NCBI RefSeq assembly: GCF_030160075.1
Contig: NZ_BSNQ01000003.1
Coordinates: 186,001 to 250,000 of the forward strand
Direction of reading: 5' to 3'
DNA from: Dyella lipolytica
GTDB lineage: Bacteria; Pseudomonadota; Gammaproteobacteria; Xanthomonadales; Rhodanobacteraceae
DNA length: 64,000 nucleotides
Shown: piece by piece, positions 34,221 to 38,751 of the stretch
Numbering within the stretch: the first letter of the stretch is position 1
Layout: each line of letters begins with the position of its first letter
Translations under genes and position numbers: made by a program
The notes under the pieces: model-generated
Databases searched by the model: none
Seen by the model: the letters and a program-made list of their open reading frames with translations, nothing else
Told to the model about the DNA's origin: nothing

Positions 34221-35174
34221 ATGATGAAACTGTCCCGGGACGTTGCGGGGCCGTGCGTGGCCCCCGGCGGCAGTGTGATTGCGGTCGGTGCTTTCGACGG
34301 CCTGCACCGCGGTCACCAAGCCCTGCTGAGCGAAGTGCGCGAACGTGCGCAGGCTCTCGGCTGCATGCCCGTCGTGGTGAGCTTCGAGCCGCTGCCGCGC
34401 GCTTATTTCTCGACCGAGCCGGTACCGCGTCTGTCCAGCGTGCGCGAGAAGCTGCGTGGCTTCGCAGCCGCGAGCATGCAACACGCGCTGCTGTTGCGTT
34501 TCAACAAAGCACTGACGGCGATGTCAGCCGAGGATTTCGTGCAGCGCGTGCTGATCGAGCGGCTCAACGTGCGCGAAGTCTGGGTGGGCGCGGATTTCCG
34601 CTTCGGCCACAAGCGCGCCGGCGATGTCGCCATGCTGGAACGGATGGGCGCGGAACGCGGATTTGCCGCGCATACCATGCCTGCCGTTTCGCTGGATGGT
34701 GAACGCGTCTCCGCCAGTCGGGTGCGGGCCTTGCTGGCAGCTGGCAATTTCGGCGCCGCTGCGCCGCTGCTCGGACGGCCCTTCGTGATCGAAGGCAAGG
34801 TGGAATACGGCAAGCAGCTCGGCCGCACGCTCGGGTTCCCGACCGCCAATATCCACCTGCGCGAACGGGCGACGCCGGTGCATGGCATCTTTGCCGTGCG
34901 CGTGGGTCTGGGTGAAAGCGCGTGCAGCTGGCCGGGCGTGGCCAGCCTGGGTACGCGGCCGACCGTCAACGAAGTCCCCGAGCCGTTGCTGGAAGTCCAC
35001 CTGTTCGATTTCGACGGCGATCTGTACGGTCAGCGCATGGCGGTCGAGTTCGTGGCCAAGCTGCGCGAGGAGATGAAATTCGACGATTTGGACGCATTAA
35101 AGGCCCAAATGAGTCATGATGCGCGCTCGGCCCGGGAGATCCTGGGCATGAACCCCGCCCTGATCAACGCGTGA
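34221..35174 (+). CDS. ribF: Bifunctional riboflavin kinase/FAD synthetase
   Basis: Makes FMN and FAD from riboflavin. The 317 residues comprise an N-terminal FMN adenylyltransferase domain (AVGAFDGLHRGHQALL HIGH-like motif, VVSFEPLPRAYF, SASRVRALLAAGNF) and a C-terminal flavokinase domain (GRTLGFPTANIHL, GIFAVRVGLGE, VEFVAKLREEMKFD). Two adjacent ATGs at 34221 and 34224 are both possible. It lies 16 bases after murJ and precedes the ileS leader. Confidence 0.95.
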   Translation: MMKLSRDVAGPCVAPGGSVIAVGAFDGLHRGHQALLSEVRERAQALGCMPVVVSFEPLPRAYFSTEPVPRLSSVREKLRGFAAASMQHALLLRFNKALTAMSAEDFVQRVLIERLNVREVWVGADFRFGHKRAGDVAMLERMGAERGFAAHTMPAVSLDGERVSASRVRALLAAGNFGAAAPLLGRPFVIEGKVEYGKQLGRTLGFPTANIHLRERATPVHGIFAVRVGLGESACSWPGVASLGTRPTVNEVPEPLLEVHLFDFDGDLYGQRMAVEFVAKLREEMKFDDLDALKAQMSHDARSAREILGMNPALINA

Positions 35175-35185
35175 AAGGCAACGAC

Positions 35186-35257
35186 ATGAGTTCCCATTAC
35201 ATGCCAGCCATCCGCAGTACGTCCGCGAAAGCGGCCGTGGCGATCATTATTATTTGA
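35186..35257 (+). CDS. Candidate isoleucine-rich leader peptide of ileS
   Basis: A 23-codon ORF in the 221-base gap between ribF and ileS, too short for normal gene calling. The ATG at 35186 has AAAGG seven bases upstream. The peptide ends AAVAIIII and then TGA, so the last four sense codons (ATC ATT ATT ATT, 35243-35254) are all isoleucine. This is the layout of attenuator leader peptides (such as those of ilv and thr operons), placed directly before the gene for the enzyme that charges tRNA-Ile. Stalling at these codons when charged tRNA-Ile is scarce would change folding of the RNA downstream. The ORF and codons are seen; the regulatory role is inferred. Confidence 0.65.
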   Translation: MSSHYMPAIRSTSAKAAVAIIII

Positions 35258-35313
35258 AGCACCCGCCGAAGCGCGTGCGCTTGCCGCCGCGCGCGGCGAG
35301 CAACAAGCACGAG

Positions 35314-35387
35314 GCTTCGGTTCCCCCTGGCATCGAAGCGGAACGAACCGGTGATGCCGTCGTAGTGATGGCATCCCTCAGACGGCA
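35314..35387 (+). promoter_or_regulatory. Alternative RNA stems between the leader peptide and ileS
   Basis: Several perfect complementary pairs overlap and exclude each other: GCTTCG 35314-35319 with CGAAGC 35334-35339; CGGTTC 35318-35323 with GAACCG 35345-35350; GGCATC 35329-35334 with GATGCC 35353-35358; GATGCC again with GGCATC 35370-35375; and TGCCGTC 35355-35361 with GACGGCA 35381-35387. The last would end eight bases before the ileS ATG, whose ribosome binding region is weak. No U-tract follows, so control would be translational or Rho-dependent rather than by an intrinsic terminator. Confidence 0.5.
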
Positions 35388-35395
35388 CCCGAGCG

Positions 35396-38254
35396 ATGAC
35401 CCAGGACTACAAGAACACCATCAACCTGCCGCAGACCACTTTCCCCATGCGCGGCGACCTGCCCAAGCGCGAGCCGGGCTGGCTGGCCGAATGGGAAAAG
35501 GCGGGGCGTTACCACCAGATCCAGGCCAAGACGACCGGCCGCCCGATGTTCGTGCTGCACGACGGTCCGCCGTATGCGAACGGCGCCATCCATATCGGCC
35601 ATGCGGTCAATAAGATCCTCAAGGACATCGTCGTCAAATCGAAGCTGCTGTCCGGCTTCCACGCGCCCTACGTGCCGGGCTGGGATTGCCACGGCATGCC
35701 GATCGAAATCCAGGTCGAAAAACAGTTCGGCAAGAACCTGCCGCCCGCCGAAGTGCAGCGCAAGGCGCGCGCCTATGCGGCCGAGCAGATCCAAACGCAG
35801 AAGGCCGACTTCAAGCGCCTCGGTGTGCTGGGCGATTGGGATCGTCCGTATCTCACGATGGATCACACCAACGAGGCATCCGAGATCCGCGCGCTGTCGG
35901 AGATGCTGCGCAAGGGCTACATCTATCGCGGCCTGAAACCGGTGAACTGGTGCTTCGACTGCGGCTCGGCGCTGGCCGAAGCGGAGGTCGAATACGAAGA
36001 CAAGACGGACATCGCCATCGACGTGGGCTTCGCCTTCGACGATCCCGCGGCTGTGGCCAAAGCGTTCGGTCTCGACAAGCTGCCCAAGCCCAACGGCCAG
36101 ATCGTGATCTGGACCACCACGCCCTGGACGATTCCCGCCAACCAGGCGCTCAACCTGCACCCGGAATTCAGCTACAGCCTGGTCGATACGCCGAAGGGCT
36201 TGCTGATCCTCGCTACCGAACGCGTGGAAGAGTGCCTGAAGACGTACGGTTTGGAAGGCCACATCATCGCGTCCGTACCAGGTACTGCACTGGGCGAGCT
36301 GAGCTTCCGTCATCCGCTCTACGCGGTCGATCCGGGCTACGGGCGCCTGGCGCCGGTGTATTTCGGCGACTACGTGACGCTCGACACCGGTACCGGCATC
36401 GTCCATTCCTCACCGGCCTATGGCGTGGAAGATTTCCTGTCGTGCAAGGCGCACGGCATGAAGGATGCCGACATCATCAGTCCGGTGATGGGCGACGGCC
36501 ACTACGCCTCCACACTGCCGCTGTTCGGTGGCATGTTCCTGTGGAAGGCCAATCCCAAGATCGTCGAAGCACTGGAGCAGGCCGGCTCGCTGCTGCACCA
36601 TCACAAGTACGTGCACAGTTACATGCACTGCTGGCGACACAAGACGCCGATCATCTACCGCGCCACGTCGCAGTGGTTTGCGGGCATGGATATCACACCG
36701 AAAGACGGCGGCAAGACGTTGCGCGAAACCGCGCTGGATGGCATCGAAGCCACGCGCTTCTATCCTGCGTGGGGCAAGCAGCGTCTGCACTCGATGATCG
36801 TCAATCGCCCGGACTGGACTCTGTCACGCCAGCGCCAGTGGGGCGTGCCGATGGCGTTTTTCGTCCACCGTGAAACCGGCGAGCTGCACCCGCGCACGCC
36901 GGAGTTGCTGGAGGAAGTTGCCAAGCGCATCGAGAAGGATGGTATCGAAGCGTGGCAAAGCATCGAGCCCAGTGATTTCCTGAGCGAGCAAGATGCCGCG
37001 CTCTACGAGAAGAATCGCGACACGCTTGACGTGTGGTTCGATTCGGGCACCACGCATTGGCACGTATTGCGCGGTTCGCACGTAGACGTATCCACGTTCC
37101 CTGCCGACCTGTATCTGGAAGGTTCCGACCAGCATCGCGGCTGGTTCCACTCTTCGCTGCTTACTGCATCGATGCTCGATGGTCAGCCGCCGTACAAAGC
37201 GCTGCTTACGCACGGCTTCACCGTGGACGGGCAGGGCCGCAAGATGTCCAAGTCGCAGGGCAACGTGGTCGCGCCGCAGAAGGTGATGGATACGCTGGGT
37301 GCGGACATTCTGCGTCTGTGGGTGTCTTCCGCCGATTACCGCAACGAGATGTCGGTATCCGACGAGATCCTGAAGCGTGTGGCCGATGCGTATCGGCGCA
37401 TCCGCAACACCGCGCGCTTCCTGCTCGGTAATCTCGACGGTTTCGATCCCGTGAAGCATCTCGTGCCCGTTGATAAGAGCGTGCTCCTCGACCAGTGGGC
37501 GGTAGGGCAGGCGTTCGAAGTGCAGCAAGCGGTAGTCGCTGCCTATGAGCGCTACGACTTCCCCGAGATCATCCAGCGCGTGCAGAACTTCTGCACCAAC
37601 GAAATGGGTGCTTTGTACCTCGACATCACCAAGGACCGCCTCTACACCATGCCGACCGAAAGCCTCGGCCGGCGCAGCGCGCAGAGTGCGATGTACCGCA
37701 TCCTGGAAGCGCTGGTGCGCTGGTTGGCTCCGGTGCTGTCGTTCACTGCCGAAGAAATCTGGCAGCACATGCCGGGCGAGCGCGGCGAAACCGTGCTGTT
37801 CGAAACCTGGTACGACGGCCTGGTGAATACGCAAGGCGCACCGGAACAACGCCGCTACTGGGCCGATCTGCTGGCGATTCGCGACACCGCATCGCGCGTG
37901 CTCGAAGACATGCGCAAGGCCGAACGTATCGGTGCGGCATTGGAAGCCAAGCTGGTGCTGCACGCCGATCCGGCAACGACCGCCCGTTACGCGGCGACCG
38001 CGGATGAGCTGCGTTTCTTTTTCATCACTTCCGAACTGAGTTTCGCACCGCTGCAGGCCGATCCGAATGAAGTGGCCGCGCTGACCTTGGAGGACGGCGA
38101 AGTGCATGTTGCCGCCAGCGTAAGCGACGCCGCCAAATGCGTTCGCTGCTGGCATCGCCGCGATGACGTGGGTAGCAACCCCGCACATCCGGAGCTTTGC
38201 AGCCGTTGTGTCAGTAACGTGGAGGGGCCGGGCGAAAACCGGCGCTGGTTCTGA
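35396..38254 (+). CDS. ileS: Isoleucyl-tRNA synthetase
   Basis: Class I synthetase charging tRNA-Ile, 952 residues. Seen are the N-terminal [21 protein letters not shown], the HIGH motif in [20 protein letters not shown], the editing (CP1) region with [14 protein letters not shown], the KMSKS loop in [12 protein letters not shown], and a C-terminal zinc finger CVRCWHRR...CSRCVSNV. The start is certain from alignment with E. coli IleS. Ribosome binding sequence before it is poor, which fits regulation by the upstream leader. lspA begins two bases after the stop. Confidence 0.98.
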
Positions 38255-38256
38255 GC

Positions 38257-38751
38257 ATGACCATGCGAAATCCATCCAATGCGTTGCCCTGGTTGCTGGT
38301 CTCGGTGCTGGTCATTGCACTCGATCAGCTCAGCAAACTCTGGGCGCTGTCGGCGCTGCAGCCGGTCGGTACGCCGCATCCAGTGATTCCCGGCTTCCTC
38401 AACTGGACGTTGGCCTTCAACACGGGCGCAGCTTTCAGTTTTCTTGCCCAAGGTGGCGGATGGCAGCGGTGGTTCTTCGTGCTGCTTGCGGTGGCGATCA
38501 GTGTGGCGCTGGTAGTGTGGCTTGCACGCACCGCGCGGCGCGAATGGCGCACGGCGTTGCCGCTTGCGCTGGTGATCGGCGGTGCGCTGGGCAATCTCAT
38601 CGACCGCCTGCATGCGTCGCAAGTTACCGACTTTATCCAGGTGTATTACCGCGATTGGTATTACCCCACGTTCAACGTGGCCGATTGCGCCATCTGCGTG
38701 GGCGCGGTGTTGCTGATCCTGTTCGGTCTGCGCTCTCCGACGCAGGCCTGA
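38257..38751 (+). CDS. lspA: Lipoprotein signal peptidase (signal peptidase II)
   Basis: Aspartic protease of the inner membrane that removes prolipoprotein signal peptides. The 164 residues form four membrane segments. The motifs are DQLSKLW, FNTGAAFSFL, and the two catalytic aspartates in GALGNLIDRL and FNVADCAI. It is translationally linked to ileS (2-base gap). The fkpB and ispH genes that often follow are absent here. Confidence 0.96.
   Translation: MTMRNPSNALPWLLVSVLVIALDQLSKLWALSALQPVGTPHPVIPGFLNWTLAFNTGAAFSFLAQGGGWQRWFFVLLAVAISVALVVWLARTARREWRTALPLALVIGGALGNLIDRLHASQVTDFIQVYYRDWYYPTFNVADCAICVGAVLLILFGLRSPTQA

Follow-up and report, generated by a model that had tools for sequence, protein, structure and literature searches.

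A candidate isoleucine leader peptide upstream of ileS in part of the Rhodanobacteraceae

Why should a short open reading frame that ends in four consecutive Ile codons lie directly in front of the gene for isoleucyl-tRNA synthetase? This question is raised by a locus of Dyella lipolytica with the gene order murJ - ribF - leader - ileS - lspA, found in the window (the whole 64-kb stretch of DNA that was analysed). The features of the locus are collected in Table 1. The initial annotation had described a 23-codon ORF with a ribosome binding site and four terminal Ile codons, located 138 nt before ileS and flanked by ribF and ileS. On re-reading the sequence all of this was recovered: ATC ATT ATT ATT TGA occupies 35243-35257, ileS begins at 35396, 138 nt past the leader stop, and the matches to the TIGR00083 and TIGR00392 profiles agree with the two flanking assignments. 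The duplex between the AAGG in front of the leader and the 16S tail is modest (-3.2 kcal/mol). Judging from the spacing, lspA is likely to form one operon with ileS.

Table 1. Coordinates of the features at the ribF-ileS locus, counted from the first letter of the window
Feature	Position	Strand	Remarks and basis
ribF	34221..35174	+	NCBIfam TIGR00083/NF004159; stop codon 11 nt upstream of leader start
Shine-Dalgarno-like AAGG of the leader	35175..35178	+	7 nt 5' of ATG; sequence
Leader ORF (candidate)	35186..35257	+	23 codons, MSSHYMPAIRSTSAKAAVAIIII then stop; sequence and orthologues
Putative regulatory Ile codons ATC ATT ATT ATT	35243..35254	+	adjoin TGA; table of 37 leaders
Element 1, GCCGAAGC	35265..35272	+	starts 11 nt from first base of stop codon; pairs with element 4
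Elements 2 and 3, hairpin GCTTGCCGC / GCGGCGAGC	35279..35301	+	nested in helix 1:4; 98.6% of cells paired
Element 4, GCTTCGGT	35314..35321	+	shared strand; partner is element 1 or element 5
Element 5, GGCATCGAAGCGG	35329..35341	+	partner is element 4 or (predicted) the ileS start region
ileS translation start region, predicted sequestered	35388..35404	+	opening-energy calculation
ileS, putative controlled gene	35396..38254	+	TIGR00392, 870 bits against a cut-off of 621
lspA, next gene after ileS	38257..38751	+	TIGR00077; start 2 nt past ileS end

The Ile run is a rare object in this genome. As a codon background we used 33 long, mechanically chosen ORFs of the window (14,794 codons), in which Ile makes up 4.4% of codons, giving a chance probability of about 4e-6 per site for four consecutive Ile codons; IIII is absent from all of these codons. 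ATT accounts for 16% of their Ile codons, yet for three of the four in the leader run. Across both strands of the window, (ATH)x4 occurs at the leader site only, in line with the earlier judgement that chance is an improbable explanation. When the string is required to end in TAA or TGA, the whole 4.05-Mb genome holds two sites, the leader and one other. The latter (L128:1490-1530, in contig C9 of the same genome) lies in an AT-rich intergenic stretch that we take to resemble a Fur-type operator, and it was rejected as another leader on account of its intergenic and unrelated place.

The distribution of the leader was examined at several taxonomic levels. The pattern RCGATYATKATTATTTGA, with at most one mismatch, was matched in 31 of 233 genomes of the family, 30 of them at the ileS leader, while its reversed control gave no match in the same genomes. 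By this search, 6 of the 26 genera sampled in the family have the leader at ileS. In genus g23, eight of 15 genomes match the pattern at ileS; six of the seven pattern-negative genomes (all except G199) were inspected, and each of them carries a variant of the peptide end (AIVIII in four, GNIII and SIIII in one each, all followed directly by the stop). No such leader was found in the upstream regions of g3, g6, g8, g9, g10, g11, g12, g14, g16, g17, g18, g19, g20 and g22 (one to eight genomes each), and g2, g4, g5, g21, g24 and g25 gave no match in the pattern search alone. G015, whose contig lacks the ileS start, stands outside these leader counts. A covariance model of the leader and its helices, run with strict filters at which weak matches are lost, matched 25 of 398 genomes of the order, and 24 of these matches lie before ileS in species already known to bear the leader. 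The remaining match (G097) was rejected because it falls in an apparent coding sequence away from ileS.

Beyond the order, no Ile run against a stop was found before ileS in the 108 class-level genomes inspected out of 149. This sample consists of 80 fetched upstream regions (one of just 174 nt) and 28 loci; the other 41 genomes are the genome under study, one with a short locus and 39 others. Four of the 108 regions were flagged for short ORFs that loosely contain Ile, none with an Ile run against the stop. The nearest case is the short ORF MKKPLAMLISAIIIHFLT in L336 (genome G557), which ends about 19 nt before the matched ileS start and is possibly an independent Ile leader, possibly a chance ORF. 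In a set of 80 loci, five (L047, L049, L100, L112 and L121) contain the leader, all from the group of the window itself. In the 72 loci with betaproteobacterial titles, a few of them short upstream, L113 alone was flagged, for an unrelated Ile-containing ORF. By eye, no leader was obvious in the stretches upstream of 14 valS-like loci in genus g1. In the sampled genomes the leader thus appears to be confined to part of the Rhodanobacteraceae. The conservation that the initial annotation had proposed to look for across the Xanthomonadales was found for the start, the terminal Ile codons and the stop, but among the genomes sampled it is restricted to six genera of one family.

Orthologous leaders were compared in a table of 37 rows, two of which (DHG33 and Rhclean409) probably repeat G202 and G204; the leader of G014, ending in AAIIII and a stop, stands outside this table (its ribF motif was not recognised). 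Ile occupies the last two codons in all 37 leaders. The third-last codon is Ile in 35 and Met in two, and the fourth-last is Ile in 32, Val in four and Asn in one. At the last three codons ATT is used in 35, 37 and 35 leaders, the last codon being the synonymous ATC in two, and the stop is TGA in 35 and TAA in two. The start stays close to the ribF stop: in every leader the nearest in-frame ATG is found within -4 to +12 nt of that stop, and in 28 it overlaps the stop as ATGA. Counted from this ATG, the leaders are 22-34 codons long. The distance from the ribF stop to the leader stop takes the values 65, 71, 74, 77, 80, 83, 92 and 101 nt in 31 of the 37 leaders, all of one frame class. The N-terminal part of the peptide drifts: its pooled pN/pS is 0.94 (29 close pairs, overlapping and of equal length). 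Since the frame, the start, the Ile codons and the stop are kept while the N-terminal part varies freely, these four appear to be under selection and the rest of the peptide does not. The comparison therefore points to a conserved, translatable short ORF with its own start and ribosome binding site upstream of ileS, in which a run of codons for the related amino acid seems to be kept while the remaining residues are free to change.

According to the initial annotation, absence of the ORF from close relatives, or free change of its Ile codons, would speak against a leader; when looked for, neither was seen, and the proposal of an Ile leader peptide tied to ileS, conserved in relatives at its start, terminal Ile codons and stop, holds at these points. 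The leader-peptide reading is strongly supported by these orthologue comparisons, and the leader is presumably translated in the cell. Because the Ile run is the sole conserved part of the peptide, the leader would gauge how quickly ribosomes pass the Ile codons, and hence how much charged tRNA-Ile is available.

Phylogenetic trees of the two flanking genes tell different histories. On the RibF tree (44 rows), the presence of the leader needs one change, a grouping recovered in a weak 52% of bootstrap trees. An IleS tree built from the first 200 residues calls for five changes, of which supported branches force three or more. There are two types of IleS in the family, split by a fully supported branch of length 0.79, and the leader stands before both. 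One type is found in g1 and g26 and the other in g7, g13, g15 and g23, a distribution discordant with the RibF tree. These comparisons suggest that the ileS coding sequence was replaced behind a retained leader, so that the leader, as far as the trees indicate, belongs to the locus.

The untranslated stretch after the leader is strongly structured (z -4.07). Five elements were delineated in alignment A1, which holds 32 distinct sequences after removal of three leaders with insertions and three duplicates. In hairpin 2:3, 98.6% of cells are paired, and two pairs show changes of both partners. Helix 4:5 is paired in 91.0% of cells, and helix 1:4 with its inner extension in 78.1% (222 of 255 cells for the eight pairs of helix 1:4 proper, summed from the per-pair table). 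Sliding the partners by one to three columns lowers the whole structures to 30-53% paired. None of the 500 shuffles reaches the observed values for cells paired and for the covariation score, which kinship among the sequences can inflate. The number of pairs changed on both sides is unremarkable (72 and 51 of 500 shuffles were as high), and so are the pair types. In G101, elements 1, 4 and 5 are altered jointly (GCCGAGGC, GCCTCGGT and ATCGAGGC), as expected of a strand common to two exclusive helices. Helices 1:4 and 4:5, which share element 4, thus appear to be mutually exclusive, with support from covariation.

Helix 1:4 has several weak points. One of its pairs is unpaired in 17 of 32 sequences, the helix is poor in genus g7, and it is missing from the RNAalifold consensus, which has 2:3 and 4:5. 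With a ribosome placed before the stop, it was not predicted in g7, G099, G193, G198, G201 and G205. Helix 4:5 is hardly predicted in g23 in any of three ribosome states, except in G201. Natural changes were also seen within the 1:4 loop: G012 has lost hairpin 2:3, and in G003, G005 and G014 a 275-nt repeat splits it, elements 1 and 4 being kept in all four. The repeat is strongly palindromic (L010:1141-1415 in G003, with the same site in L004 of G005 and L007 of G014) and forms an outer stem with two long hairpins, showing compensating changes between species. It is one member of a dispersed family, matched in 15 of 16 genomes of the genus (up to 32 matches per genome); the genome under study has 12 matches, none within the window, and an Rfam search with the repeat returned sub-threshold miRNA matches alone. 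RNAalifold also proposed that the Ile codons pair with the start codon of ileS; this was set aside (five weak, mostly invariant pairs over a long distance).

The ileS start is predicted to be unusually structured where the leader is present. Opening it costs a mean of 10.6 kcal/mol in the 32 leader sequences, compared with 8.1 kcal/mol when the upstream part is shuffled (mean z +1.27), and 6.4 kcal/mol in 25 leaderless relatives, compared with 7.3 kcal/mol after shuffling (mean z -0.54; L175-L178, four more leaderless regions, were left out of this set). The cost is above the shuffled mean in 26 of 32 leader sequences but in only five of 25 leaderless ones. With the ribosome before the stop, element 5 is the predicted partner of the start in 26 of the 32 (at least five expected pairs); the value is lower in G011, G101, G201 and three g7 sequences. 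This pairing uses different sequences in g1 and g23, and the complementarity of element 5 to the start exceeds that of its shuffled versions by no more than a modest margin (mean z -0.77). Six ileS starts were compared with the 16S tail: the match is weak in three (-2.0 to -2.2 kcal/mol; two from g1 and one from g26) and moderate in three (-5.1 to -5.9 kcal/mol; g7 and g23). The folding predictions accordingly place the ileS start in a buried state in the default fold.

A consensus scan of 34800-35600 found no intrinsic terminator between the leader and ileS. A leu/ilv leader is encoded elsewhere in the same genome, on the reverse strand of L211 (C5:42400-46400) at about 794-1020. By eye, its ORF ends in MDLLPFGGLLLLPLVLVLLITNGGAG and a stop and is followed by a GC hairpin and TTTTTT before a leuA-like gene; the cluster seems to extend to ilvC (also by eye) and to an acetolactate synthase gene (TIGR00118). 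Thus the device that seems to serve biosynthesis in this genome is missing from the ileS leader. The ilv/thr-type logic proposed in the initial annotation survives as far as an Ile peptide leader is concerned, but a classical terminator-type attenuator is not supported. A T-box was also sought: Rfam gave no match at the gathering threshold, and among the four sub-threshold matches with E up to 5 none is a T-box or leader family. Two other routes into ileS were tried and rejected. Readthrough or frameshifting does not fit, as the distance from leader to ileS falls into different classes modulo 3 and the stops in the alternative frames are not at conserved positions. A second ORF, running from a TTG over the leader stop to an ATGA at ileS, is open in several g23 species and closed early in 11 of 15 g1 species, as well as in g15 and g26.

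On this basis we consider it probable that the leader is part of a cis-acting, ribosome-mediated attenuator, with charged tRNA-Ile as the sensed molecule and translation initiation of ileS as the main point of action. Ribosomes leaving ribF would enter the leader through translational coupling, and the charged tRNA-Ile sensed there would be the product of IleS itself. Whether the ribosome is held on the Ile codons or has advanced the 3-12 nt to the stop, where its leading edge would come close to the first base of element 1, would decide between helices 1:4 and 4:5. This choice would set whether element 5 can bury the ileS ribosome binding site and start codon. We infer that stalling switches the helices and that control is exerted at the level of translation; by physiological analogy, more IleS would be expected when charged tRNA-Ile falls.

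The sign of the response deserves separate consideration. In hand-counted sequences, the distance from the first stop-codon base to the start of element 1 is 11-13 nt. A ribosome of standard footprint standing on the Ile codons should fall short of element 1, and one on the stop codon should just reach its edge. When the cut of the RNA is moved from +10 to +16, opening of the ileS start becomes 1.6-5.4 kcal/mol cheaper (mean 3.5) in 12 of 12 g1 sequences, and it is also cheaper in G099. In g7 and g23, cutting away element 1 produces no consistent change of start accessibility in the equilibrium model, with rises in some sequences. For g1 the folding model, which contains neither kinetics nor the exact ribosome edge, thus favours an open start once ribosomes finish the leader, opposite to the expected sign. 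A further reading is an inverse leader, in which a ribosome at the stop masks element 1, helix 4:5 forms and the ileS start opens, so that IleS would track the successful decoding of Ile codons. We hold this polarity to be unlikely. If true, IleS would fall when charged tRNA-Ile is scarce, a feed-forward control of the synthetase that would perhaps limit mis-charging with valine in place of the usual derepression.

The same Ile-sensing leader might instead act on transcription, with helix 1:4 as an antiterminator and with helix 4:5, or the C-rich region that follows, promoting Rho-dependent termination; Ile limitation would then stall the ribosome, helix 1:4 would form and ileS-lspA would be transcribed. 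In trp/leu attenuators, control codons and a stop are followed by the first strand of a pair of exclusive helices. The locus shares this layout, its element 4 is common to helices 1:4 and 4:5 with covariation in both, and the scheme would give the expected negative feedback. Against it, no U-tract terminator was found here and the leu/ilv leader of the same genome has a canonical one, the structure of the untranslated stretch makes it poor for Rho loading, and the unusually structured ileS start of leader-bearing species would be needless for a purely transcriptional device. Transcriptional output is therefore, in our estimate, a minority prospect.

Other explanations dispense with the sensing of Ile altogether. 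The AU-rich ATTATTATTTGA might be an RNase E-type processing site whose downstream hairpins shield the 5' end of the ileS mRNA, the Ile codons being incidental. The final three codons are conserved largely as nucleotides (ATT, in a GC-rich genome), and stable hairpins lie directly downstream; both would suit such a site, but cleavage needs neither a frame kept across several in-frame length changes, nor an ATG placed so close to the ribF stop in all 37 leaders, nor the GTC found within the run of four leaders and the synonymous final ATC of two. We regard this explanation as improbable. It is still harder to see the leader as a small functional protein or a sequence-specific arrest peptide, even though it is a conserved small ORF with a ribosome-binding site: its N-terminal part evolves almost freely, its length varies, and what is conserved is mainly the Ile run, whereas arrest peptides generally require conserved residues upstream of the stall site. 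Finally, only four Ile codons are involved, and a chance ORF in a conserved intergenic region might be invoked; this view is refuted by the pattern matches in 31 of 233 genomes together with the g23 variants, the table of Ile codons, the pN/pS and the kept frame, and its probability is negligible.

The initial annotation knew of no peptide-leader control of ileS in proteobacteria. This part has to be qualified, since a ribosome-profiling study of Caulobacter crescentus (PMC4117421) mentions an 'ileS leader CDS (CCNA_03934)' in a figure legend; no description of it as a sensor of isoleucine was found in the literature searched. By description, CCNA_03934 resembles the present leader in being a small coding sequence termed an ileS leader, in an alphaproteobacterium; it differs in that it served as the negative control of a swarm assay, the legend giving neither Ile codons nor a mechanism (PMC4117421). 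A word search of PMC4833913 did not find ileS named, and no description of an Ile leader-peptide attenuator of ileS in proteobacteria was found in the literature searched, which lay mostly outside subscription journals. For Gammaproteobacteria the locus is a candidate case, with good support, of ileS control by a peptide leader. Its layout is unusual: the Ile codons adjoin the leader stop, the start lies at the stop of ribF, and the scan found no terminator. An inverse action would add an unusual regulatory logic for a synthetase. Natural variants, namely the two IleS types, the loss of the inner hairpin and the repeat insertion in three species, make the mechanism directly testable.

Control of a synthetase gene by a leader peptide has precedents, among them the attenuator of pheST in E. 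coli. In Streptomyces, leader-peptide attenuators are described for trpS2 and leuS (PMC1262725). All of these share with the ileS leader a short ORF with codons for the amino acid of its own synthetase and alternative helices downstream. The present leader differs from them in concerning isoleucine and ileS, in holding its control codons against the stop with no intrinsic terminator found, and in lying within a gene cluster with its start at the stop of the preceding gene. For Actinobacteria, PMC1262725 reports ileS genes with candidate translational T-boxes, as well as attenuators of trpS and leuS genes. The actinobacterial ileS T-box (PMC1262725) resembles our leader in its predicted control of translation initiation through tRNA-Ile charging; a T-box RNA, however, binds tRNA itself, whereas here a translatable ORF is the proposed sensor and no T-box was found. 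Closer at hand, the leu/ilv leader of L211 is likewise an ORF rich in branched-chain codons, but its control codons lie well before the stop and its layout is of the classical terminator type. In translational attenuators of the erm type, a ribosome stalled by a drug masks strand 1. These attenuators have in common with the ileS leader a leader ORF, stepped exclusive helices and one strand able to bury the next start region; they differ in that the Ile codons here lie upstream of strand 1, from where a ribosome of standard footprint should fall short of it. If its output is indeed translational, the ileS leader would be an amino-acid-sensing counterpart of these drug-sensing translational attenuators.
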